Position numbers and translations under genes: made by a program
The notes under the pieces: generated by a model
Told to the model about the DNA's origin: nothing
What the model saw: only the letters and a program-made list of their open reading frames with translations
Databases searched by the model: none
Source of the DNA: Pseudomonas sp. PSE14
GTDB lineage: Bacteria; Pseudomonadota; Gammaproteobacteria; Pseudomonadales; Pseudomonadaceae
Direction: 5' to 3'
Assembly (NCBI RefSeq): GCF_029203285.1
Contig: NZ_CP115669.1
Coordinates: 5,394,001 to 5,458,000, forward strand
Length of the DNA: 64,000 nt
Part shown: piece by piece, positions 29,826 to 44,787 of the stretch
Layout: each line of letters begins with the position of its first letter
How positions within the stretch are numbered: the first letter of the stretch is position 1

Positions 29826-30629
29826 TCAGCGCCCGTAGCGTTCGCGACCCCAGGCGATGAAGGTTTCCAGCATGCGCCGGAGCACCTGGGCGGTGGGCGC
29901 GGCGAGGTCTTCGCGGTAGCCGAAGGGCGCCTGCTCATCCATGTAGTTGCACTGCGCGAGCTCCAACTGCACCGCGTGCACGTTGTCCTGCGGCTGGCCA
30001 TAGTGGCGGGTGATATGCCCGCCCTTGAAGCGGCCGTTGAGGATGTGGAGATAGGCAGGCGCGTCGGCGCAGACCGCTACCAGTCGCTCGGCCAGCTCCG
30101 CGTCACAGCTGGCGCCGCTGTTGGTGCCGATGTTGAAGTCCGGCAGCTTGCCGTCGAACAGGTGGGGGATCACCGAGGCGATCGAGTGGGCATCCCACAG
30201 CAGCGCGTAGCCGAATTCGGCCTTCAGGCGCGCCAGCTCGTCGGCCAGGGTCTGGTGATAAGGGGTCCAGACTTCGGCCAGGTAACGCGCACGCTCCTCG
30301 GGTGACGGAGTCTGGCCGTCCTTGAACAGCGGGCGGCCGTCGAACAGGGTGTCCGGGTAGAGGCCGGTAGTGGCGGTGCTGTACAGCGGCTTATCGTCGG
30401 CCGGGCGGTTGAGGTCGATGACGTAACGCGAGTAGCCGGCAGCCAGGGTGCTGGCGCCCAACTCTTCGGCGAAGGCGTAGAGCTGGGGAATGTGCCAGTC
30501 GGTATCGGCCAGTTCGCGGGCTTCGTCGACCAGACCGGCTTCCACCGCCGGGGTCAGGCGGGTGCCGGGGTGCGGCATGCTGATCAGCAGGGGGACGCGG
30601 CCGCGTTTGAATTCGAGAACGTTATCCAT
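29826..30629 (-). CDS. hutG: N-formylglutamate amidohydrolase
   Basis: The 267-residue metal-dependent hydrolase converts N-formyl-L-glutamate to glutamate and formate, the last step of the five-step histidine route used by Pseudomonas. Typical segments are LLISMPHPGTRLTP, RYVIDLNRP, LLWDAHSIASVIPHLFDGKLPDFNIGTNSGASCD, and GGHITRHYG with the metal-ligand His residues. It is the last gene of the hut operon, separated from hutI by 119 bp that hold a REP pair, so its expression may be lower than that of the preceding genes. Confidence 0.95.
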   Translation of the reverse strand: MDNVLEFKRGRVPLLISMPHPGTRLTPAVEAGLVDEARELADTDWHIPQLYAFAEELGASTLAAGYSRYVIDLNRPADDKPLYSTATTGLYPDTLFDGRPLFKDGQTPSPEERARYLAEVWTPYHQTLADELARLKAEFGYALLWDAHSIASVIPHLFDGKLPDFNIGTNSGASCDAELAERLVAVCADAPAYLHILNGRFKGGHITRHYGQPQDNVHAVQLELAQCNYMDEQAPFGYREDLAAPTAQVLRRMLETFIAWGRERYGR

Positions 30630-30748: not shown

Positions 30749-31945
30749 TCACAGCTCTTCGCCGTGACGAATGATGCGCTTGGGCAGGTCGCCGCCGAGC
30801 CAGTAGGCCAGTTCGGCGGGACGCTGGATGTCCCAGGCGATGAAATCGGCGACCTTGCCCGCTTCCAGGCTGCCGTGGCTGTCGGCCATGCCCAGGGCGC
30901 GCGCAGCGTTGAGCGTGACGCCGGCCAGCGCTTCTTCCGGCGTCAGGCGGAAAGATGTGCAGGCCATGTTCATCATCAGGCGCAGGGACAACGCCGGCGA
31001 GGTGCCGGGGTTGAGGTCGCTGGCGATGGCGATGTTCACGCCGTGCTTGCGCAGGGCGTCCATCGGCGGCAACTGGGTTTCGCGCAGTACGAAGAAGGCG
31101 CCCGGCAGCAGCACCGCAACGGTGCCGGCCTCGGCCATAGCGATGGCGTCGCTTTCGTCCATGAATTCGAGGTGGTCGGCGGACAACGCGCCGTAGCGTG
31201 CGGCCAGGGTGGAGCCGTGCAGCGACGACAGTTGCTCGGCGTGCAGTTTCACCGGCAGGCCCAGGCGCTGGGCGGCCTGGAACACCCGCTCGACCTGCGC
31301 CGGAGAGAACGCCAGGTGTTCGCAGAAGGCGTCCACCGCGTCCACCAGCCCTTCCTCGGCCAGTACCGGGAGGATGTGGGTGCAGATACGGTCGATGTAC
31401 TCATCGGCGCGGCCGGCGTATTCCGGGGGTAGCGCATGGGCCGACAGGCAGGTGGTGCGCACGGTCACCGGCAGTTCCTGCTCCAGCCGGCGGGCCACGC
31501 GCAGCATGCGGCGCTCGCTTTCCAGATCCAGGCCGTAGCCGGATTTCACTTCCAGCACGGTCACGCCATCGGCCAGCAGTGGGCGGGCGCGCTTGATGGC
31601 GCTGGCCAGCAGCTCGTCCTCGCTGGCCTCGCGGGTGGCGCGTACGGTACTGGCGATACCGCCACCGGCGGCGGCGATCTCGGCGTAGCTGACGCCATTC
31701 AGGCGCTGCTCGAATTCGCCGCTGCGATCACCACCGAACACCAGGTGGGTATGGCAGTCGATGAGGCCAGGCGTGACCCAGGCGCCGCCCAGGTCGGTGC
31801 TCTGTGCGGGTCGCTCGGGCAGTTCGGCGCGCGGGCCGATCCAGGCGATGCGATCACCTTCGGTGATGATCGCAGCGTCCTCGATGATGGCGTAGCGACC
31901 GCCCTTCATGGTCGCCGCGTGACAGTGGTGCCAGAGGTGTTTCAT
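30749..31945 (-). CDS. hutI: imidazolonepropionase
   Basis: The 398-residue amidohydrolase-fold enzyme opens the ring of imidazolone-5-propionate to N-formimino-L-glutamate. Metal and substrate motifs are clear: [58 protein letters not shown] and [11 protein letters not shown] with the conserved Asp. Length is standard. Its start overlaps the stop of the HutH-like gene by four bases (ATGA), tying its translation to that gene. Confidence 0.97.
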
Positions 31946-33474
31946 TGCAGTCTCCCGATGCTCGCGCCGACGCCTTGCAGCGCCGCCGGGTCGGCCAGCA
32001 GCGCGGTGGCGCGGTCGATGTCCGGCGCCAGCCAGCGGTCGCTGTCGTAGGCCGGTACCTGTTCGCGCAGCAGGCTCCAGGCGCAGTCAGTGCCGGCGCC
32101 GAAGCGCTGCGGCTTGAGGAATTCGAAGGCCTGGGCGGCCAGCAGGTATTCGATGGCAAGGATACGTCGGGTATTGTCGATGGCCCGGCCTAGTTTGAGC
32201 GCAGCGCTGGTGCCCAAGCTCAGGTGGTCTTCCTGCAGGCCGGACGTGACGTAGTTGTCGACCACCGCCGGTTGCGCCAGCTGGCGGTTCTCGCCGGCCA
32301 GGGAGGCGGCGACGTACTGCACGATCATCATTCCCGAGTTGACGCCCGGCTGGCTGACCAGGAAGGCCGGCAGACCGCTGACCAGCGGGTTGATCAGGCG
32401 GTCCAGGCGGCGCTCGGCAACGCCGCCCAGCTCGGCCACCGCAATCGCCAGCAGGTCGGCGGCCATGGCCACGGATTCGCCGTGGGGGTTGGCCTGGGAC
32501 ACCACGCGGTAGTCGTCCGGCGTGCCCAGCACCAGCGGGTTGTCGGTGGCGGAATTGAGCTCGGTCTCGATCTGCTTCGCCGCGTGCTCCAACTGGTCGC
32601 GGCAGGCGCCATGGATCTGCGGCATGGAGCGAATGCTCAGGGCGTCCTGGGTGCGGATGCCCTTGCTGGCGGCGATCACTTCGCTGCCTTCGAGCAGCGC
32701 GCGCAGGTTGGCGCCGACCTTCTGCATGCCCGGGTGCGGCTTGAGCGCGATGATCTCGGCGTCGAAGGCGTCGATCTGCCCGCGCAGGGCTTCGAAGCTC
32801 ATGGCGCCGATGACGTCGGCCCACTGGCTCAGGCGCGTCGCGTCGTCCAGGGCGAGGCAGCTCAGGCCGGTCATGCACGGCGTGCCGTTGACCAGGCAGA
32901 GCCCGTCCTTGGCGCCCAGTTGCACCGGCTCCAGGCCTTCAGCAGCCAGGGCGCGGGCCGCGGGAACGACTTCGCCGCGATAGCTCACGTCCCCGATACC
33001 CAGCAGCGCCACGCCAACGTGGGCCATGTGGGTCAGGTAACCCACCGAGCCCTGGGATGGCACGCGTGGGGTGATGCCGTGGTTGAGCAGCGCCAGCAGG
33101 GCTTCCACCACGCGGCGGTGCAGGCCGGACTTGCCGTGGCTGTAGTTGCCGATGGCGGCAGCGATGATCGCGCGGGTCTGCTCGTCCCTCAGCGGCTCGC
33201 CCACGCCGCAGGCATGGCTGAGCAAGGTGTTGCGCGACAGTTGCGCCAGTTGCTCGCCCTGCAGCACCACGTTGCACAGCGCGCCCAGCCCAGTGCTGAT
33301 GCCATAGGCCCGCTCACCCCGGCTGACGATGCGTTCGACGATGCCGTGGGCGTTGTCGATGCGCGCCCAGGCCGCCGTCGACAGTTGCAGGCGCGCGCCG
33401 TGGCGCGCCACCGCGACCAGGTCCTGCCAGCGCAGCGGGCCGTTGCCGAAGGTGATGGTGGAAGAGGACGACAT
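31942..33474 (-). CDS. histidine ammonia-lyase-like protein lacking the MIO triad
   Basis: This 510-residue protein is full-length for the aromatic amino-acid lyase family. Canonical HutH in this window reads PSQGSVG, then ASG, then DLAPLAH. Here PSQGSVG (residues 139-145) runs straight into YLTHMAH, so Ala-Ser-Gly, which cyclises into the MIO electrophile, is precisely absent. DNA at 33037-33042 confirms Gly145-Tyr146. Tyr57, Ser86-His87, Asn196, Gln276, Arg282 and the QEDH motif remain, but the Tyr of QDPYSLR is Leu. It sits between the transporter genes and hutI (4-bp overlap). Standard deamination is not expected. A regulatory, binding or different catalytic role is possible. From memory, PAO1 has a second HutH-like gene in the same place. 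Confidence 0.9.
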
Positions 33475-33523: not shown

Positions 33524-34339
33524 TTAGATCGCCGCGACGCGGCGCTGGACGAAGCGGTCGACGTACTCGTCGGCGGGCTTGTGCAGGATGTCGGTCGGCG
33601 CGCCGACCTGGATCAGCTGGCCGTCCTTGAGGATGGCGATGCGGTTGCCGATGCGCACGGCTTCATCGAGGTCGTGGGTGATGAAGACGATGGTCTTGTG
33701 CAAGGTCTTCTGCAGCTCCAGCAGTTGGTCCTGCATGTCGGCGCGGATCAGCGGGTCGAGGGCGCTGAAGGCTTCGTCCATGAGGATGATGTCGGTGTCG
33801 GCGGCCAGTGCGCGGGCCAGGCCAACCCTTTGCCGCATGCCGCCGGAGAGCTGGTGCGGGTAGGACTTCTCGTAGCCCTTCAGGCCCACGGTGGCGATCC
33901 AGTGCAGCGCACGCTCCTGGCATAGCGCCTTGCTCTCGCCGCGGATCTTCAGGCCGTAGGCGACGTTGTCGAGCACGCTCTTGTGCGGCAGCAGGCCGAA
34001 GCTCTGGAACACCATGCTGATCTTGCGCCGACGGAAGTTCTCCAGGGCGGCGGCGTCGTAGGTGAGGATATCTTCGCCGTCCACCAGGATCTGCCCGCTG
34101 GTGGGGTCGATCAGGCGGTTGAAGTGGCGCACCAGGGTCGACTTGCCGGAACCGGACAGGCCCATGATGACGAAGATTTCCCCGGCCTCGATGGACAGCG
34201 AGAGATCGTTGACGCCAACCACGCAATCGGTGGCGGCCAGCACCTCGGCCTTGCTCTTGCCCTGGCGGATCATCCCCAGCGCAGCGTCGGCCTTGGCGCC
34301 GAAGATCTTGTAGACGTTCTTGACCTGGATCTTGCTCAT
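33524..34339 (-). CDS. hutV: histidine ABC transporter ATP-binding protein (HutV)
   Basis: This 271-residue ATPase belongs to the ProV/OpuAA group: an N-terminal extension with GKSKAEVLAATDCVVGVND, Walker A GLSGSGKSTL, Q-loop MVFQSFGLLPHKSVLDN, signature LSGGMRQR and Walker B IILMDEAFSALDPL. Unlike many ProV proteins it lacks the C-terminal CBS pair, so osmotic gating is unlikely. Within the hut operon it fits HutV of the HutXWV histidine importer. It overlaps hutW by four bases. Confidence 0.9.
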   Translation of the reverse strand: MSKIQVKNVYKIFGAKADAALGMIRQGKSKAEVLAATDCVVGVNDLSLSIEAGEIFVIMGLSGSGKSTLVRHFNRLIDPTSGQILVDGEDILTYDAAALENFRRRKISMVFQSFGLLPHKSVLDNVAYGLKIRGESKALCQERALHWIATVGLKGYEKSYPHQLSGGMRQRVGLARALAADTDIILMDEAFSALDPLIRADMQDQLLELQKTLHKTIVFITHDLDEAVRIGNRIAILKDGQLIQVGAPTDILHKPADEYVDRFVQRRVAAI

Positions 34340-35190
34340 TTGCTGGCCTCATGGTGGCGCGAGCGGCCGTAAGCCTGGGTGATGCGGTCGATGACCACGG
34401 CGAGGATGACGATGGCCAGACCCGCTTCCAGGCCCTTGCCGACGTTGAGGGTCTGGATGCCTACCAGCACGTCCTCGCCCAGGCCGCGGGCACCGATCAT
34501 CGAGGCGATGACCACCATCGACAGGGCCATCATGGTGGTCTGGTTGATGCCGGCCATGATGCTCGGCAGCGCCAGCGGCAGCTGCACACCGAACAGTTGC
34601 TGGCGGCGGTTGGCGCCGAAGGCGGTGATGGCTTCCATCACTTCGCGGTCGACCTGGCGGATGCCCAGGTCGGTCAGGCGGATCAGCGGCGGTGCGGCGT
34701 AGATCACGGTGGCGAAGATCGCCGGTACCTTGCCCAGGCCGAACAGCATCAGCACCGGGATCAGGTACACGAAGCTGGGCATGGTCTGCATGATGTCCAG
34801 GAGCGGCAGCAGCACGGCGCGAAAGCGATCGCTACGCGCGGCAACGATGCCCAGCGGGATGCCGATCAGCACCGAGATGATCGTCGCGACCATCATCAGC
34901 GCGAGGGTCTGCATCAGCTTGTCCCACAGACCCACGGCGCCCACCAGGAACAGCAGTCCGACGATCACGACGGTCGGCAGGATGCGCCGGGTGGCGTGCC
35001 AGGCGATGCCGGCGACGATGGCCAGCATCAGCCACCAGGGAGTGGCCCGCAGCACGCCTTCCAGGTTGACGATGGCCCAAAGCAGGGTATCGGAGATGTG
35101 GCGAAACACGTCACCGTAATTGGTGACCAGGGCATCGACCCAACCGTTGACCCAGTCGGCGATGGAGAAGGTGAAGCGTTCGGGGAACAT
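34336..35190 (-). CDS. hutW: histidine ABC transporter permease (HutW)
   Basis: The 284-residue ProW-like permease has a short N-terminal amphipathic part (FTFSIADWVNGWVDALV) and about six membrane helices. The central domain contains GLWDKLMQTLALMMVATIISVLIGIPLG, DIMQTMPSFVYLIPVLMLFG and ATVIYAAPPLIRLTDLGIRQV, with the coupling loop near EAITAFGANRRQQLFGVQLPLA. These are diagnostic of quaternary-amine/histidine permeases. It is encoded between hutX and hutV. Confidence 0.92.
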   Translation of the reverse strand: MFPERFTFSIADWVNGWVDALVTNYGDVFRHISDTLLWAIVNLEGVLRATPWWLMLAIVAGIAWHATRRILPTVVIVGLLFLVGAVGLWDKLMQTLALMMVATIISVLIGIPLGIVAARSDRFRAVLLPLLDIMQTMPSFVYLIPVLMLFGLGKVPAIFATVIYAAPPLIRLTDLGIRQVDREVMEAITAFGANRRQQLFGVQLPLALPSIMAGINQTTMMALSMVVIASMIGARGLGEDVLVGIQTLNVGKGLEAGLAIVILAVVIDRITQAYGRSRHHEASK

Positions 35191-35255: not shown

Positions 35256-36227
35256 TCAGAGCGCAGCCTGGACCTTCTTCGCAGCGTCCTCGCTGACCCA
35301 GGTGGTCCACACTTCCGGGTGCTCCTTGAGGAAGGACTTGGCCAGTTGCTCGGAGGTGAGTTTCTCCTTGGCCATCTTCGCCAGGTTCTGGTTCAACAGG
35401 TCGATCGGCAGATTGACCTTCTCCAGCACGGCCACCAGCTCCGGCGCCTGATCGTGGAAGGTCTTCGACAGACCGACCTGGATCTTCACGTCCTTGTTCA
35501 CACCCGGTTCATCCAGCTTCACCAGGTCGGCCTGGCCCATCAGCGGCGTCGGCGACCAGTAGTAGAAGAGGATAGGCTCCTTGCGCTTGTAGCTCGACAG
35601 CACGGCGGCATCCAGGGCCGGGCCGGTGCCGGGACGGAAGTTGGTGTATTTGTCCTCGAGGCCGTATTTCTTCAGCATCTCGGAGTTCTCCAGCTCGCAG
35701 GTCCAGCCGGCCGGGCAGTTGTAGAAGCGGCCCTTGCCCGGCTCTTCCGGGTCGCGGAACAGCTCGGCGTACTGTCCAAGGTCGGTCACGGCCTTCAGGT
35801 TCGGTGCCTTGGCTTCGATGCCACGCGCCTTGTCGCCTTCGATCACGAAGCGCGGCACGTACCAGCCTTCGGTGGCGCCGACGATGGGGGCGCCCACGCC
35901 GACCACCTTGTTGGCGGCGGCGGCCTTGTTCCAGGCGTCGCTGCGGCCGATCCACTCTTCACCGAAGACCTGAATGTCGTTGTTGGCCAGGGCCTGTTCC
36001 ATGGTGATGGAGTTGCCCGGCAGGCTGTCGGTTTCGCAGCCGTAGCCGTTCTTCAGGATGATCTGCATGACGTCGGTGAGCAACATGCCGCTCTCCCAGT
36101 TCAGTCCGGCGAATTTCACCGGCTTGCCACTTTCGCACCAGCCGGCAGCCTGGGCCGAAGCCATGGTGCCGCCCAGCAGACCGGCGGAAAGGAACAGTCC
36201 CAGCAGCGTCTTCTTGGTGTTGTTCAT
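35256..36227 (-). CDS. hutX: histidine ABC transporter substrate-binding protein (HutX)
   Basis: The 323-residue periplasmic protein has a signal peptide (cleavage near ASAQAA) and the OpuAC/ProX-type fold: WCESGKPVKFAGLNWESGMLLTDV, NDIQVFGEEWIGRSDAWNKA, GWYVPRFVIEGD and EPILFYYWSPTPLMGQADLVKLDEPG. The Trp/Tyr-rich segments suit binding a cationic or aromatic ligand. Location in the hut operon supports histidine as ligand, by analogy with HutXWV of other bacteria. It begins the XWV cluster, 74 bp after the permease gene. Confidence 0.9.
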   Translation of the reverse strand: MNNTKKTLLGLFLSAGLLGGTMASAQAAGWCESGKPVKFAGLNWESGMLLTDVMQIILKNGYGCETDSLPGNSITMEQALANNDIQVFGEEWIGRSDAWNKAAAANKVVGVGAPIVGATEGWYVPRFVIEGDKARGIEAKAPNLKAVTDLGQYAELFRDPEEPGKGRFYNCPAGWTCELENSEMLKKYGLEDKYTNFRPGTGPALDAAVLSSYKRKEPILFYYWSPTPLMGQADLVKLDEPGVNKDVKIQVGLSKTFHDQAPELVAVLEKVNLPIDLLNQNLAKMAKEKLTSEQLAKSFLKEHPEVWTTWVSEDAAKKVQAAL

Positions 36228-36301: not shown

Positions 36302-37714
36302 TCAGGTGCGGGCCGGCAGGATCAGCCGGTCCGGTACTGCCCGCGTAACGCGCCGGGCGACCAGGTAATAGAGAACGGCCGGAACCACGAGGCCGATGAT
36401 CCAGGAGATATCCACGCCACCGAGGGCGTCCACCAGCGGGCCGGTGTAGAACTTGGTGGAGATGAACGGCAGCTGCACCAGCACACCGATCACGTAGACG
36501 CTGATGCCGGGGATGTTCCAGCGACCGTAGCGGCCATCGGGGTCGGCCAGCGCCGGCACGTCGTAGTGCTCACGGGTGATGCAGTAGTAGTCCACCAGGT
36601 TGACCGCGCTCCACGGGGTGAAGAAGGCCAGCAGGAAGAGGATGAACGACTTGAACGCGCCGAGGAACGAGTGCTGGCCGAGCAGCGCGATCAGGGTCGC
36701 GGCGCCCACGATCAGCAGGACGAACACCAGCCGCTGCAGGCGCGACACTTCCAGGTGGCCACGGAAGCCGCTGATCACGGTGGCGATGCACATGAAGCTG
36801 CCGTAGGAGTTCAGCGTCGAGATGGTGATCTTGCCGAAGGCGATGCTGAAGTACAGCGGCGCGGCGACGGCGCCACTGCCGCTCAGGCCGACGATATAGG
36901 CCACTTCATGGCCGGCGAATTGCCCGTTGGCCCCGGCCGCAGCGAACACGCCGAAGATCATCGCCACTTGCGCACCGATCACCGAACCTGCGCCGACGGC
37001 GAGGAAGGTCTTCACCGACGACGTCTTGCTCGGCAGGTAACGCGAGTAGTCGGCGACGTAGGGGCCGAAGGCGATCTGCCAGGAGGCCGCCAGGGACACC
37101 GCGAGCAGGAAGCTGCTCCAGCTGAAGTGGCGGATTTCCAACAGCGCACTGATGTCGGTCTGGCTCATCAGGCGGCTGAACAGGTAGACGAAGGCGATCA
37201 CGCCGATGACGCTGGCGATGCGGCCGATGACATGGATCACCCGGTAGCCGAGCACGGTCACCAGCACGATGACACTGGCGAACATCAGGATGCCGACGCT
37301 GTCGCTGACGCCGAACAGCTGGCCCAGCGCCTGGCCGGAAAGCACCGTTCCGGTGGCGGTGAAGCCCAGGTACATCAGGCACACCAGCACGATCGGGATG
37401 GCTGCGCCGTAGACACCGAACTGCACGCGGCTGGAGATCATCTGCGGCAGGCCGAGCTTCGGCCCCTGCGCCGCATGCAGCGCCATCACGCCACCACCCA
37501 GCAGTTGGCCGATCAGCAGGCCGATCAGCGACCAGAACACGTCGCCACCCAGCACCACGGCCAGGGCGCCGGTGACGATGGCGGTGATCTGCAGGTTGGC
37601 GCCCAACCACAGGGTGAACTGGCTGTAGAGCTTGCCGTGGCGCTCGGCCTCGGGAATGTAGTTGATCGAGCGCACCTCGATCAGGGGTTTGGAGCTATCA
37701 CTGGCCTGGGACAT
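36302..37714 (-). CDS. NCS1/CodB-family permease, probable urocanate or histidine transporter
   Basis: The 470-residue product has about 12 hydrophobic helices and NCS1 landmarks: QFTLWLGANLQITAIVTGAL at helix 1, GPKLGLPQMISSRVQFGVYGAAIP, WQIAFGPYVADYSRYLPSKTSS and FFTPWSAVNLVDYYCITR. NCS1 carriers import nucleobases, hydantoins or similar heterocycles with Na+ or H+. In the hut operon directly after hutU, urocanate or imidazole-type substrates are likely; a urocanate transporter HutT(u) is known in related species, but symbol use varies, so none is given. Confidence 0.88.
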   Translation of the reverse strand: MSQASDSSKPLIEVRSINYIPEAERHGKLYSQFTLWLGANLQITAIVTGALAVVLGGDVFWSLIGLLIGQLLGGGVMALHAAQGPKLGLPQMISSRVQFGVYGAAIPIVLVCLMYLGFTATGTVLSGQALGQLFGVSDSVGILMFASVIVLVTVLGYRVIHVIGRIASVIGVIAFVYLFSRLMSQTDISALLEIRHFSWSSFLLAVSLAASWQIAFGPYVADYSRYLPSKTSSVKTFLAVGAGSVIGAQVAMIFGVFAAAGANGQFAGHEVAYIVGLSGSGAVAAPLYFSIAFGKITISTLNSYGSFMCIATVISGFRGHLEVSRLQRLVFVLLIVGAATLIALLGQHSFLGAFKSFILFLLAFFTPWSAVNLVDYYCITREHYDVPALADPDGRYGRWNIPGISVYVIGVLVQLPFISTKFYTGPLVDALGGVDISWIIGLVVPAVLYYLVARRVTRAVPDRLILPART

Positions 37715-37823: not shown

Positions 37824-39491
37824 TTACTTGCCGGTGATCATCGGCAGGTTCAGGCCCTGCTCCTTGGCGCAATCAATCGCAATCTGGTAGCCGGCGTCGG
37901 CATGGCGCATCACGCCGGTACCCGGGTCGTTGGTCAGTACGCGGGCGATGCGCGCGGCGGCCTCGTCGGTGCCGTCGCAGACGATCACCATGCCCGAGTG
38001 CTGGGAGAAGCCCATGCCCACGCCGCCGCCGTGGTGCAGCGAAACCCAGGTGGCGCCGCTGGCGGTGTTCAGCAGGGCGTTGAGCAGCGGCCAGTCGGAC
38101 ACGGCGTCGGAGCCGTCGCGCATGGCTTCGGTCTCGCGGTTCGGGCTGGAGACCGAGCCGGAGTCGAGGTGGTCGCGGCCGATCACGATCGGGGCTTTCA
38201 ACTCGCCGCGGCGCACCATTTCGTTGAACGCCAGGCCGAGCTTGGCGCGCTGGCCCAGGCCGACCCAGCAGATGCGTGCCGGCAGACCCTGGAAGCTGAT
38301 GCGCTCCTTGGCCATGTCCAGCCAGTTGTGCAGATGGGCGTCGTCCGGGATCAGTTCCTTGACCTTGGCGTCGGTCTTGTAGATGTCCTCGGCATCACCG
38401 GACAGCGCCGCCCAGCGGAACGGACCGACGCCACGGCAGAACAGCGGGCGGATGTAGGCCGGGACGAAGCCGGGGAAGTCGAAGGCGTTGGCGACGCCCT
38501 CTTCCTTGGCCATCTGGCGAATGTTGTTGCCGTAGTCGAAGGTCGGCACGCCCTGCTTCTGGAATTCCAGCATGGCCTGGACATGCACGGCCATGGATTG
38601 CTTGGCGGCCTTCACCACGGCGGCCGGGTCGGTCTGCGCGCGGTCGCGGTACTGTTCCCAGGTCCAGCCGGCCGGCAGGTAGCCGTTGAGCGGGTCGTGG
38701 GCGGAGGTCTGGTCGGTGACCATGTCCGGGCGCACGCCGCGCTTGAGCAGTTCCGGGAGGATTTCCGCGGCGTTGCCCAGCAGCGCGATGGAGATGGCCT
38801 TGCCTTCGGCGGTGTATTGGGCGATGCGCGCCAGGGCGTCGTCGAGGTCCTTGGCCTGCTCGTCGACGTAACGGCTGGCGAGGCGGAAGTCGATGCGGCT
38901 CTGCTGGCATTCGATGTTCAGCGAGCAGGCACCGGCCAGGGTCGCGGCCAGCGGCTGAGCACCGCCCATGCCGCCCAGGCCGGCGGTGAGCACCCAGCGG
39001 CCCTTGAGGTTGCCGTCGTAGTGCTGGCGGCCGGCCTCGACGAAGGTTTCGTAGGTGCCCTGGACGATGCCCTGGCTGCCGATGTAGATCCAGGAGCCGG
39101 CGGTCATCTGGCCGTACATGGCCAGGCCCTTGGCGTCCAGTTCGTTGAAGTGTTCCCAGTTGGCCCAGTGCGGCACCAGGTTGGAGTTGGCGATCAGGAC
39201 GCGCGGGGCATTGGCGTGGGTCTTGAACACGCCGACCGGCTTGCCGGATTGCACCAGCAGGGTCTCGTCTTCATTCAGCGCTTTCAGGGTCTCGACGATC
39301 TTGTCGTAGCACTCCCAGTTGCGCGCGGCGCGGCCGATGCCGCCGTAGACCACCAGTTCCTTCGGGTTCTCCGCGACTTCCGGGTCGAGGTTGTTCATCA
39401 GCATGCGCAGCGGCGCTTCAGTCAGCCAGCTCTTGGCGTTCAGTTGGGTGCCGCGCGGTGCACGGATTTCGACGTCACGGAATTTGGTCAC
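37824..39491 (-). CDS. hutU: urocanate hydratase
   Basis: The 555-residue NAD-dependent enzyme hydrates urocanate to imidazolone-propionate. Key segments are [38 protein letters not shown] (NAD site), [20 protein letters not shown] with the active-site Cys, and [27 protein letters not shown] start at 39491 is chosen: GAAGGAG stands six bases upstream and the product then begins [13 protein letters not shown] like other HutU. The frame remains open upstream to an ATG at 39593 lacking a ribosome site, which would add 34 acidic, Pro-rich residues. It is first in a minus-strand operon running to hutG. Confidence 0.96.
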
Positions 39492-39600
39492 GGGAGACTC
39501 CTTCGATAGCTCGGTTTCGGGAAGCTCGGGGGCAGCTTCGGGCGGTTCGTTCGAAGGTTCCGAGCTGTCAGGCGAATCGCTCAGAATCTTCATGTCTATG

Positions 39601-40225: not shown

Positions 40226-41755
40226 ATGTCCGAAACCCTGCTCCTGACGCCCGGCCAGTTCGACCTCGACCAGCTGCGCGCCATCTATCAACACCAACCC
40301 GCCCTGCAGCTCGCCGACGAGTGCCGCGAGACCATCCTGCGCAGCGCCCAGACGGTCAGCCAGATCATCGCCGACCAGCGCACCGTCTATGGCATCAATA
40401 CCGGCTTCGGCCTGCTCGCCCGCACCTCGATTCCCGAGGACCAGTTGGCGACCCTGCAACGCAACCTGATCCTCTCCCACTGCACCGGCACCGGCCCCTT
40501 GCTGGACGACGCCAGCGTGGCGCTGATCATGGCGCTGAAGATCGGCTCCCTGGCGCGCGGTTTCTCCGGCGTCGGCCTGCCGGTGATCGAGACGCTGCTC
40601 AAGCTTTACCAGGCGCGGGTCTATCCTTGCATTCCGTCCCAGGGCTCGGTGGGCGCCTCGGGCGACCTGGCGCCGCTGGCGCACCTCTCCTCTGCACTGA
40701 TCGGCGTCGGCCAGGTCCGCCACGAAGGACGCATCCTCGACGCGGTGGAGGGCCTGGCCCTTGCCGGCGCCACGCCACTGACCCTCGGTCCGAAGGAGGG
40801 CCTGGCGCTGATCAATGGCACCCAGGTCTCCACCGCCCTGGCGCTGCGCGGGCTGTTCGCGGCGGAGAAGCTGTTCATTTCGGCGGTGGTCGCCGGCAGC
40901 CTGAGCGTGGAAGCACTGAAAGGCTCGTTCGTACCCTTCGACGCACGCATCCAGGCCGTGCGCGGCCAGCCGGGACAGATCGCAGTTGCCACGCTGTACC
41001 GCGAGCTGCTGCATGACAGCCCGATCAACCAGTCGCACATCGACTGCAAGCGCGTGCAGGACCCCTACTCCCTGCGTTGCCAACCGCAGGTGATGGGCGC
41101 CTGCCTCGACCACCTGCGTTTCGCCGCCGGGGTGTTCCTGCGCGAGGCCAACGCCGTCTCCGACAACCCGCTGGTGTTCAGCGCGGACGGCGACGTTCTG
41201 TCGGGCGGTAATTTCCATGCCGAGCCGGTGGCCATGGCGTCGGACGTGCTGGCGCTGGCGATCTCCGAGATCGGTGCACTGTCGGAGCGGCGCATCGCCC
41301 AACTGGTGGACCCGGCGATGTCCGGCCTACCGGCCTTCCTGGTCAAGGAAGGCGGCCTGAACTCCGGCTTCATGATCGCCCAGGTCACCTCGGCGGCGCT
41401 GGCCTCGGAGAACAAGACCTGGGCGCACCCGGCCTCGGTGGACAGCCTGCCGACCTCGGCGAACCAGGAAGACCACGTGTCCATGGCCACCTTCGCCGCC
41501 CGTCGCCTGCTGGACATGGCCGGCAACAGCGCCGGGGTCGTCGCCATCGAACTGCTCGCCGCAGCGCAAGGCGTGGACTTCCACGCGCCACTGCAGAGCT
41601 CGCCGCAATTGCAGGAAGTGCGCACGCTGATCCGCAGCCAGGTGCCGCATTACGAGCAGGACCGCTACTTCGCCCCGGACATCGCTGCGGCGCGGGCCTG
41701 GGTCGAAGAGGGGGTGATGAGCCGCTGGATTGGCTACGAGCGGTTGTATTCGTAA
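40226..41755 (+). CDS. hutH: histidine ammonia-lyase (canonical)
   Basis: The 509-residue enzyme eliminates ammonia from histidine to give urocanate. The MIO triad Ala144-Ser145-Gly146 is intact in [14 protein letters not shown]. Tyr55 ([10 protein letters not shown]), Ser-His (ILSHCTGTG), Asn in INGTQ, QDPYSLR and the QEDH motif complete the active site. It is transcribed alone, divergent from hutU, from its own sigma-54 promoter; from memory hutH lies inside the main operon in P. aeruginosa. The ATG at 40226 has AGGAAG upstream; the open frame before it spans the promoter and is not coding. Confidence 0.97.
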
Positions 41756-41892: not shown

Positions 41893-42483
41893 TCAGCGTG
41901 CTTCGAGTTCTATCACGCAGATACCCGCACTGCCCGCCACCGTCAGCCGCCACTCGCGCAGCATACCGTCGCCTTCGGCGATCAGCGTGTCGTGCAGTCC
42001 CAGCACGGCGCTGGCCTGGCCGTTCAGGCTGGCGTGAATCCCCTCGCCGGCACTGAATAGCAGCACCGTCGACGCGCTGCTGAAGAAGTGCGCGTCGCGG
42101 TCCAACCGCAGCCACTGCAAACGTGCCCGGTAGCGAGAGGGCGAATAGATCAGGTTGAAGTCGCGAATCGCGCCGCCCAGCAGGGTGCAATCCACCGCAC
42201 TGGCGCCATCGAAGGCGAATGCATCGAGGACGCGCAGGTCACGGGAATCGATGCCATCTACGTTCAGGCGCATGCCCTCGCCTTCCAGGACGCTGATGAC
42301 ACGCTGGTAACCAGTGAAAGCCGAGAAAGGCCCTGGGGCGCCAACGTCGGCGATGGACACGCGCCAGCCGAAACCTTCCAGCCCGTCGCCAGCGTCGCGG
42401 ACGATCTCACGGGTAGTGCCCGCGCCGTTCTTCCAGGGCATCGCCGGGTAGTCGGCGGCGCGCAAAAGCTTCACATCGGTCAT
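41893..42483 (-). CDS. hutD: HutD family cupin protein
   Basis: The 196-residue product matches HutD/Ves: LRAADYPAMPWKNGAGTTREIV at the N-terminus, WRVSIADVGAPGPFSAFTGYQRVISVLEGEGM, and a second cupin half with FSAGEGIHASLNGQ. HutD is a bicupin thought to bind a histidine-pathway metabolite and limit over-induction of hut genes. The ATG at 42483 overlaps the hutC stop by four bases, so HutC and HutD are made from one transcript. A longer in-frame start inside hutC is rejected. Confidence 0.94.
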   Translation of the reverse strand: MTDVKLLRAADYPAMPWKNGAGTTREIVRDAGDGLEGFGWRVSIADVGAPGPFSAFTGYQRVISVLEGEGMRLNVDGIDSRDLRVLDAFAFDGASAVDCTLLGGAIRDFNLIYSPSRYRARLQWLRLDRDAHFFSSASTVLLFSAGEGIHASLNGQASAVLGLHDTLIAEGDGMLREWRLTVAGSAGICVIELEAR

Positions 42484-43247
42484 GAGCTGAAACGTCCTTC
42501 CAGGCGGTAGCGCGACCCCGGATAGAGCAGGCGCGCGCTGGTCACGGTATTGCGTCCCGACCAGGTGCGCCGACGAATCAGCAGGCACGGCTCGTGGCGG
42601 TCGATGGACAGTAGCTTGCATTCCTCAGGGCTGGGCAGCACCGCCTCGACCACGTGCTCGCCCTCGCTCAGTGGCGCGACCTGGGTGAGGTAGGCGAACG
42701 GCGTCTGCCCGGTGAAATCCTGCTTCAGGTAATCCGGCGCCACGGCGGCGTTCACGTAGCGGTCCTCGATCTGCACCGGGATATCGTTCTCGTAGTGCAC
42801 GATCACCGAGTGGAAGATGCGCTGGCCTTCGCGCACATCCAGCGCCAGGGCGCGCTCGGCACTGGCCAGCTCCTCCACCAGGCTGACCACCACCAGGTGA
42901 TGCTTGTGCCCGCGGGCGGTGATTTCCTCGGCGATGTTCTGCACCTGGAACAGCGCCGACTGGCCCTTGGGCTCGGCGACGAAGGTCCCCACACCCTGCA
43001 TGCGCACCAGCAGGCCGTCGGCGGTCAGCTCGCGCAGCGCGCGGTTGATGGTCATCCGGCTAACACCCAGTTCCGCCACCAGTTCGGCTTCCGATGGCAC
43101 TCGGTGGTGAGGCGGCCAGGTGCCGGACTGGATCTGCTGGACGATCATCTGCTTGACCCGCGCGTACAGCGGCGCGGGAATTTCCCCCATCTGCGCGGCG
43201 AGCGACGAACCCTCGACGGGCGGGGTAGGCGTGGGCGATGCGGGCAC
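42480..43247 (-). CDS. hutC: GntR-family histidine utilisation repressor
   Basis: The 255-residue product has an N-terminal GntR winged helix (PAPLYARVKQMIVQQIQSGTWPPHHRVPSEAELVAELGVSRMTINRALREL) and a C-terminal UTRA ligand domain (from about residue 100, ending RLLYPGSRYRLEGRF). HutC represses hut genes and is released by urocanate. A GTG start at 43247 with AAGGAG six bases upstream is favoured, the same arrangement as hutU; the open frame further upstream crosses the hutF operator and is not coding. It is divergent from hutF and coupled to hutD. Confidence 0.93.
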   Translation of the reverse strand: MPASPTPTPPVEGSSLAAQMGEIPAPLYARVKQMIVQQIQSGTWPPHHRVPSEAELVAELGVSRMTINRALRELTADGLLVRMQGVGTFVAEPKGQSALFQVQNIAEEITARGHKHHLVVVSLVEELASAERALALDVREGQRIFHSVIVHYENDIPVQIEDRYVNAAVAPDYLKQDFTGQTPFAYLTQVAPLSEGEHVVEAVLPSPEECKLLSIDRHEPCLLIRRRTWSGRNTVTSARLLYPGSRYRLEGRFSS

Positions 43248-43356
43248 GGGAAACTCCTTGTCGTGGCGACAGTACGGGGCAACTGCGGTATGACTCCGGC
43301 ATGTACCGGATTCGACTCGTGCAGACAAGTCCTCAGACCGTCGGGTTGCCACGCAG

Positions 43357-43393
43357 TTTACGGACTTGGCAAACGTCTGTATATGTATATACA
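43357..43393 (+). promoter_or_regulatory. hutF promoter with overlapping HutC-type sites
   Basis: A sigma-70-like pair, TTTACG (43357-43362) and TATATG (43380-43385), has 17-bp spacing. TGTATATACA at 43384-43393 equals the core of the hutH operator, and a partial copy TGTATATGTA overlaps it at 43378-43387. No GG-N10-GC sigma-54 element fits here, so this promoter differs from those of hutU and hutH. The same site could autoregulate the divergent hutC. Confidence 0.65.
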
Positions 43394-43422
43394 AATTCCA
43401 AGAACCCTGCGAGGCCCCGCGC

Positions 43423-44787
43423 ATGTCCGTCCTGTTCGCCGAATCCGCCCTGCTGCCCTCCGGCTGGGCGCGCAATGTCCGCTTCGAGATCGATGCCGAC
43501 GGCTTGTTCACCGCGATCACTCCGGACGCCAGCGATGCAGGCGCCGAGCGTGTTGCCGGCCCGCTGCTCGCAGGCATGCCGAACCTCCACTCGCACGCAT
43601 TCCAGCGCGCCATGGCGGGCCTGGCGGAGGTCGCCGGCAATCCCAACGACAGTTTCTGGACGTGGCGTGACTTGATGTACCGCCTGGTCGGCCGCCTGTC
43701 GCCCGAACAGGTCGGGGTGATCGCCCGCCAGCTCTACATCGAGATGCTCAAGGCCGGTTACACCGGCGTCGCCGAATTCCATTACGTGCACCACGACGTC
43801 GACGGCAAGCCCTACGCCAATCCGGCGGAGCTGGCCCTGCGCGTCAGTCAGGCCGCGGCCGACGCCGGCATCGGCCTGACCTTGCTGCCGGTGCTCTATT
43901 CCCACGCCGGCTTCGGTGGCCAGGCGCCAAGCGTAGGCCAGCGCCGCTTCATCAACAGCACCGAAGGCTACCTGAAGCTGATCGACGGCCTGCGGTCGCA
44001 CCTGGCGACCCAGCCGCAGCAGAGCCTCGGCCTGTGTTTCCATTCCCTGCGCGCGGTCACTCCGCAGCAGATCGCCGAGGTGCTGGGCGCCGACTCCACC
44101 GGCTGCCCGGTGCACATCCACATCGCCGAGCAGCAGAAGGAAGTCGACGACTGCCTGGCCTGGAGCGGCCGCCGCCCGTTGCAGTGGCTGTACGAGAACG
44201 TCGATGTGGACGAGCGCTGGTGCCTGGTCCACGCCACCCATGCCGAGGCCGACGAAGTGACCTCGATGGCGCGCAGCGGCGCGGTAGCCGGCCTGTGTCT
44301 GACCACCGAAGCGAACCTGGGCGACGGCATTTTCCCGGCGGTGGACTACCTCGCCCAGGGCGGCCGCTACGGCATCGGTTCGGACAGCCACGTCTCCCTG
44401 AGCGTGGTCGAGGAACTGCGCTGGATGGAATACGGCCAGCGCCTGCGCGACCAGCGCCGCAACCGCCTGTATGGCGCCAACCAGCCGATGGTCGGACGCA
44501 CCCTGTTCGACGGCGCCCTCGCCGGCGGCGCCCAGGCTCTTGGCCAACCCACTGGCGCACTGGCCGTCGGCAAGCGTGCCGACCTGCTGGTGCTCGATGG
44601 CAGCGATCCGTACCTGCAGACCGCCAGCGGCGACGCCATCCTCAACCGCTGGCTGTTCGCCGGCGGCGACCGCCAGGTGCGCGACGTGATGGTCGCCGGA
44701 CAATGGCGGGTGCGCGAAGGCCGGCATGCTCTTGAGGAGCAAAGCACCCAGGCGTTCGCTGGCGTGCTGCGCGAACTGCTGGACTGA
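43423..44787 (+). CDS. hutF: formimidoylglutamate deiminase
   Basis: The 454-residue amidohydrolase converts N-formimino-L-glutamate to N-formylglutamate, the step that defines the five-step Pseudomonas route together with HutG. Metal-site motifs are PLLAGMPNLHSHAFQRAM, PVHIHIAEQQKEV, LVHATHAEADEV and GIGSDSHVSLS. Length is standard. The ATG at 43423 begins the conserved domain; the frame is open upstream across the operator but that part is not coding. Expressed divergently from hutCD. Confidence 0.96.
   Translation: MSVLFAESALLPSGWARNVRFEIDADGLFTAITPDASDAGAERVAGPLLAGMPNLHSHAFQRAMAGLAEVAGNPNDSFWTWRDLMYRLVGRLSPEQVGVIARQLYIEMLKAGYTGVAEFHYVHHDVDGKPYANPAELALRVSQAAADAGIGLTLLPVLYSHAGFGGQAPSVGQRRFINSTEGYLKLIDGLRSHLATQPQQSLGLCFHSLRAVTPQQIAEVLGADSTGCPVHIHIAEQQKEVDDCLAWSGRRPLQWLYENVDVDERWCLVHATHAEADEVTSMARSGAVAGLCLTTEANLGDGIFPAVDYLAQGGRYGIGSDSHVSLSVVEELRWMEYGQRLRDQRRNRLYGANQPMVGRTLFDGALAGGAQALGQPTGALAVGKRADLLVLDGSDPYLQTASGDAILNRWLFAGGDRQVRDVMVAGQWRVREGRHALEEQSTQAFAGVLRELLD

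Follow-up and report, generated by a model that had tools for sequence, protein, structure and literature searches.

The question raised by this locus is what a HutH-like protein may do once the Ala-Ser-Gly triad of the MIO group is gone. The window (the whole stretch of 64,000 nucleotides analysed from Pseudomonas sp. PSE14) contains a hut region with two hutH-like genes, a canonical one and a paralogue lacking the triad. Comparison of the homologues suggests that the MIO-less HutH is very probably a conserved enzyme, and neither a dead copy nor a pseudoenzyme. The more specific reading, an MIO-free lyase which would convert hercynine (histidine betaine) to urocanate and trimethylamine, is about evenly balanced, with catalysis, substrate and product alike putative. 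The relevant features of the region are as follows.

29826..30629, minus strand: hutG, N-formylglutamate deformylase
30749..31945, minus strand: hutI, imidazolonepropionase; its start and the end of the MIO-less gene share 4 bases
31942..33474, minus strand: 510-aa HutH paralogue without MIO (hutH1 type), proposed to be a hercynine trimethylamine-lyase
33019..33051, minus strand: deletion site in the MIO-less gene, codons for residues 142-152 (11 residues, against 14 in the canonical HutH)
33524..34339, minus strand: ABC ATPase immediately upstream of the MIO-less gene, assigned to the betaine/proline/choline family by TIGR01186 proV (360.6 bits, cut-off 326.6)
34336..35190, minus strand: ABC permease, ChoW/ProW-like, below the equivalog cut-offs
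35256..36227, minus strand: substrate-binding protein, OpuAC family (PF04069)
36302..37714, minus strand: NCS1-type permease (PF02133); urocanate or histidine would be a guess at its cargo
37824..39593, minus strand: hutU, urocanate hydratase (1034 bits, cut-off 375; below the thiourocanate-hydratase cut-offs)
40226..41755, plus strand: canonical hutH with the ASG triad, the comparison gene; on the opposite strand to the MIO-less gene and divergent from hutU
42480..43613, minus strand: hutC, histidine utilization repressor; the HutC model covers residues 150-375, and the true start is probably later
43366..44787, plus strand: hutF, formimidoylglutamate deiminase

The MIO-less gene is an intact ORF with an ATG start and no frameshift. 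Its product can be aligned over the full length of the canonical HutH (205 of 504 positions identical, 41%), and both points agree with the original prediction. An exact deletion of Ala-Ser-Gly had also been claimed. The triad is indeed gone, and the MIO segment is three residues shorter than in the canonical HutH; which three residues were deleted depends on the alignment. In the MAFFT alignment Tyr146 lies opposite Ala142 and Ser143-Gly144-Asp145 are deleted, and Ala-Ser-Gly is absent in either placement. The stop of the gene and the start of hutI share the bases ATGA (31942-31945), which makes the claimed translational coupling plausible. The NCBIfam hutH equivalog model TIGR01225 accepts the window protein (546.9 bits, cut-off 539.15) under the name histidine ammonia-lyase; two other members of its clade fall below the cut-off (L143 with 444.4 and L228 with 494.3 bits). 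By the defining feature, the MIO triad, the window protein is not HutH.

Most of the wider loci were obtained with a DNA pattern spelling the gapped motif, which gave at least 119 matching stretches in public genomes; the remainder came from whole-protein searches of genus, family and phylum genome samples that overlap. The gene was present in 20 of the 25 genus genomes (own genome included), the other 19 copies being 74-98% identical, and the triad was absent in all 20. Matches at E up to 1e-110 were found in 32 of 119 family genomes; one of them (G027, L055) is a canonical triad-bearing HutH, and the other 31 are 59-100% identical to the window protein. The phylum sample gave matches in 27 of 398 genomes (22 triad-less and 5 canonical). 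Among the matches listed for the DNA pattern, all 119 loci carried a HutH-like ORF best matching the window protein; the genera include Pseudomonas, Burkholderia, Paraburkholderia, Erwinia, Pantoea, Serratia, Halomonas, Paracoccus, Nitrospirillum, Paenibacillus, Brevibacillus and Sulfobacillus.

The 231 near-full-length locus sequences that were aligned comprised 157 triad-less and 74 triad-bearing ones. All 74 triad-bearing sequences were at most 43.6% identical to the window protein, and the 152 triad-less sequences with at least 45.8% identity all had the same three-residue gap. The other five triad-less sequences (below 38% identity) were three of a second-paralogue type and two ergothionase-like ones; these five and the ergothionase 6s7j are left out of the residue counts over 152 sequences. 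A tree was reconstructed from 84 rows (thinned at 85% identity), in which one branch splits the triad-less from the MIO rows (97/84), and the 58 rows of the MIO-less HutH type group at 95/87. The triad-less HutH makes up one supported branch across Pseudomonadota and Bacillota. L051 and the ergothionase group also fall on the triad-less side, and 6s7j sits on a long branch; given these, a single loss of the triad and several losses both fit the tree.

Pairwise dN/dS values (NG86, stop-to-stop ORFs trimmed to shared columns) had a median of 0.146 for the MIO-less copies of the genus (range 0.05-0.40; 153 pairs, 18 sequences) and of 0.203 for canonical HutH (range 0.07-0.35; 21 pairs, 7 sequences). 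The genus copies are under purifying selection. A sequencing error or a decaying copy was ruled out by this value together with the triad-less homologues in 20 of the 25 genus genomes. The original prediction of a gene that is maintained rather than decaying is borne out by the intact ORF, the shared gap and the dN/dS; the old conserved clade and the purifying selection that it put forward for checking were both recovered, and none of the 152 close homologues carries the triad.

Residues were compared with P. putida HAL (PpHAL), using the residue numbers and roles of HAL work; ASG fell at 142 in the alignment, and positions 53, 83, 195, 277, 280, 283, 329 and 414 carried the residues expected there. 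Tyr53, His83, Asn195, Gln277, Arg283 and Glu414 were unchanged in all 58 thinned rows, and in window numbering Tyr57, His87, Asn196, Gln276, Arg282 and Glu415 were kept in 152/152 homologues. The alignment agrees with the earlier statement that the first five of these and the QEDH motif are retained, and that the Tyr of QDPYSLR became Leu. Beyond that residue list, Phe329 became Pro or Ala, Val386 became Tyr387 and Asn412 became Leu413. The replacements over the 58 rows are: Ala142 by Tyr (58) with positions 143-145 deleted (58), Pro148 by His (58), Tyr280 by Leu (57) or Met (1), Phe329 by Pro (37), Ala (20) or Cys (1), Val386 by Tyr (58), and Asn412 mostly by Leu (53). Tyr146, His149 and Tyr387 are common to 152/152 homologues, and Leu279 to 151/152. 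PDB titles list the HAL mutants Y280F, F329A, F329G and D145A; all three positions are altered in the MIO-less clade. The predicted monomer (mean pLDDT 93.9, pTM 0.93) matched HAL with a TM of 0.93, and the HAL fold is kept; two active-site stretches have lower confidence, residues 141-150 (mean pLDDT 74) and 401-420 (76 and 69).

Two known enzymes are useful for comparison. HutH (EC 4.3.1.3; PpHAL, PDB 1b8f) is similar to the MIO-less protein in fold, in sequence, in the residues on the imidazole and carboxylate side and in the hut operon setting; whereas the MIO-less protein has no triad, has Tyr280, Phe329, Val386 and Asn412 replaced, and adjoins importer genes. The T. denticola ergothionase (PDB 6s7j) also has an MIO-free HAL fold (TM 0.90 to the predicted monomer) and Leu at 280, and a trimethylammonium substrate is a further likeness that is proposed only. 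It is 29% identical to the window protein, and its triad was lost in another way (SSIGEGD). In 6s7j and two relatives, the PpHAL-386 column is Lys and Asn195 is replaced; whereas the MIO-less HutH has Tyr387 at this column and keeps the Asn. This Lys has a catalytic role in ergothionase; with Tyr in its place, the ergothionase mechanism is not simply transferable. In the tree, 6s7j and the second copies in L228 and L226 form a group (100/100) outside the 58-row clade. Identity of the window protein with ergothionase was rejected on the basis of the tree, of Tyr387 instead of Lys, and of the hutU, which is of the urocanate and not the thiourocanate type. The MIO-less HutH is neither HutH nor ergothionase and represents one more branch of the HAL fold without MIO. 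Relatives of 6s7j, separate from the triad-less HutH clade, were found in Salinicola corii, in the same-phylum genome G502 and in a Burkholderia (loci L228:2510-4045, minus strand, L271 and L277).

The gene neighbourhoods point to imported substrates. Among the matches listed, 14 of the 119 pattern loci were cut by an edge and excluded; in 97 of the other 105 an importer gene lies directly upstream of the MIO-less gene. These are a proV-type ATPase in 60 loci, a polar-amino-acid-type ATPase in 32 (a label meaning resemblance to one reference ATPase, at L143, and a family-3 binding protein at one representative), and a BCCT carrier in 5, two of which (L104 and L160) are near copies; the rest have no classified neighbour (7) or hutC (1). 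The upstream ORFs of six of these seven unclassified loci were scanned, giving ABC permeases at L086, a TsaD ORF at L102 and no family at the other four. BCCT genes (PF02028) adjoin the MIO-less gene in L228, L227 and L056. In the control with canonical hutH, which counts three importer types only, an importer was directly upstream in 2 of 43 genes, both proV-type. The other upstream neighbours were an NCS1 permease (3), the MIO-less gene (2), another hut gene (15), and unclassified or none (21, which may include histidine permeases). The importer association recurs in Pseudomonadaceae, Halomonadaceae, Burkholderiales, Enterobacterales and Paenibacillaceae, related species within these not being independent.

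Linkage to the hut pathway is also frequent. Among the matches listed, 94 of the 119 loci have another hut gene within the fetched stretch, and 69 have a hut enzyme gene other than hutH; no hut gene was found within the fetched stretch of up to 8 kb in 25. The clustered hutU genes (that of the window and 7 others) scored as urocanate hydratase with 945-1034 bits, one partial gene with 414, all below the thiourocanate cut-offs; the compound feeding HutU should therefore be urocanate. Nineteen clusters of unclassified neighbour ORFs recurred in at least 3 loci, some of these ORFs being likely antisense artefacts. The 10 cluster representatives scanned were an ABC permease, a family-3 binding protein, an amino-acid permease, a flavin reductase (5 loci), an RNA methyltransferase, an outer-membrane receptor, a LysR regulator, an alpha/beta hydrolase, an N-acetyltransferase and one without a match; no trimethylamine-handling gene was among these 10.

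Departure of a primary amine needs MIO, and ammonia is a poor leaving group without it. The substrate of the MIO-less HutH would be a histidine with a better leaving group than ammonia, most likely hercynine (N-alpha-trimethylhistidine). The adjoining importer HutXWV (betaine/ProU family) would take it up, and its imidazole and carboxylate would be bound as in histidase (His87, Arg282 and Glu415). Removal of the beta proton and expulsion of trimethylamine would give urocanate, which could then be converted to glutamate via HutU, HutI, HutF and HutG. A quaternary ammonium leaves more easily, which would have allowed loss of the triad and of the residues supporting it; Tyr146 and Tyr387, as placed by the alignment, perhaps hold the trimethylammonium in an aromatic seat.

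The adjoining importer genes and the MIO-free relative ergothionase, taken together, suggest a trimethylammonium substrate. Ergothionase is described in PMC13405746 as a trimethylamine lyase acting on ergothioneine with an HAL fold without MIO, and by this precedent an MIO-free HAL fold can expel trimethylamine. Hercynine would be the best fit because it could be imported, matches BCCT or ProU/OpuC-type carriers, would yield urocanate on elimination, and would need no MIO. However, a ProU-type importer is no proof of a betaine cargo, since HutXWV of P. fluorescens takes part in histidine uptake according to PMC8871633. Against hercynine there are also, among the matches listed, the polar-amino-acid-type importers in 32 of the 105 loci, the BCCT genes upstream in only 5, and the 25 of 119 loci with no hut gene in the fetched stretch; the absence of trimethylamine-handling genes among the 10 scanned neighbour representatives likewise counts against it. 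Whether this widespread MIO-free histidase branch, with its importer, gives histidine betaine an entry to the hut pathway and constitutes an unassigned bacterial source of trimethylamine could at present go either way.

An active MIO-free lyase or related enzyme might instead act on another imported imidazole compound, which is possible but somewhat unlikely. The candidates are mono- or dimethyl-histidine, ring-methylated histidine, ergothioneine or its oxidation products, and cis-urocanate (as an isomerase). The conserved pocket and the importer linkage fit any imported imidazole acid, and the 32 polar-amino-acid-type importers would suit less-methylated substrates; whereas the BCCT and OpuAC-type neighbours favour a quaternary ammonium. 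For ergothioneine in particular, the separate group of 6s7j and its two relatives, the urocanate type of the scanned clustered hutU genes, and the ergothionase-like genes beside the MIO-less gene in Salinicola corii and elsewhere in a Burkholderia genome carrying the MIO-less gene all speak against it. It is improbable in our view that the protein is a catalytically dead pseudoenzyme which, with histidine or urocanate bound, modulates HutH, for example in mixed tetramers. The loss of MIO with the same fold would agree with it, as would the position of canonical hutH directly downstream of the MIO-less gene in 42 of 44 cases (pattern loci, among the matches listed). However, the substrate-side residues are invariant over two phyla and not obviously needed by a dead scaffold, the gene is linked to importers, and an intact canonical HutH was not found in 6 of 25 carrier genomes chosen for diversity (G637, G640, G647, G649, G652 and G661; the BCCT genes of G640 and G647 show these two to be closely related), the other 19 having one. 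A sole role as partner or inhibitor of HutH, one option of the original prediction, is disfavoured by these genomes and by the conservation of the substrate-side residues in 152/152; its option of MIO-independent chemistry is favoured.

Two genomes are instructive. In Salinicola corii (L104; G640, whose match coordinates equal those of G256) the MIO-less gene lies with hutF, hutU, BCCT, hutI and hutG, together with genes for an OpuAC protein and for a relative of ergothionase (6s7j as best PDB match, E 1.4e-78). A canonical gene of the HutH type was not detected in this genome; its sole triad-bearing HAL-family match is distant (37%, L224), lies elsewhere in the genome, and might in principle serve as its histidase. 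The cluster of Paenibacillus eucommiae comprises OpuAC-like and proV-like genes, the MIO-less gene, hutU and hutI; when this genome was searched with canonical HutH at E up to 1e-50, the MIO-less gene was the only match. Such clusters, where the MIO-less gene is the only HutH-like entry enzyme, and the TIGR01225 score of the window protein would fit an MIO-independent histidase with the ordinary reaction. This reading is nevertheless very doubtful, as the MIO-side residues are altered along with the triad, ammonia leaves poorly without MIO in HAL chemistry, and hutH1 of P. fluorescens SBW25 is reported to be dispensable for growth on histidine. Serratia rubidaea and Polaromonas sp. P2-4 have an intact MIO-less gene, and canonical hutH occurs in them only as interrupted pieces (G652:C1:851624-852848 and G661:C1:3802581-3803180) with an inside stop; decay and assembly error are alike possible.

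If the hercynine lyase is real, a hut-region gene is misnamed in many Pseudomonas, Burkholderia and Enterobacterales and in some Bacillota, and a trimethylamine source is now annotated, at least partly, as histidine ammonia-lyase. The hut operons would also admit a betaine, which would be another trimethylamine route in soil and plant bacteria, and the dispensability of SBW25 hutH1 would be explained. The pair of enzymes would also be a natural experiment on MIO, with one fold and one imidazole pocket with or without the electrophile according to the leaving group. Among the titles and abstract openings listed from open-licence PMC papers, none was about a hercynine lyase or a hut-operon HutH lacking MIO.

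The gene order in P. aeruginosa PA7 (L116) is proV, the MIO-less gene, hutI and hutG; with hutI at PA5092, PA5093 should be the MIO-less gene. PA5093 is called hutG in PMC12772324, whereas the gene order suggests the MIO-less HutH paralogue. The deletion reported there under that name impaired growth on histidine and urocanate and was complemented; if it hit the MIO-less gene, a role beyond betaine entry would be implied.

A second MIO-less HAL homologue was found in the genome of PSE14 itself (L003:1456-3024, minus strand; G000:C1:3171499-3172974). It has the same three-residue gap with Tyr in place (PGEGSVGYLGPEGH); however, it is 37% identical, keeps Tyr280 and Phe329, and has QEDP instead of QEDH. 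Its neighbours encode S-(hydroxymethyl)glutathione dehydrogenase, a Rieske oxygenase and reductase, and an ABC system with a family-3 binding protein, which suggests a demethylation pathway.
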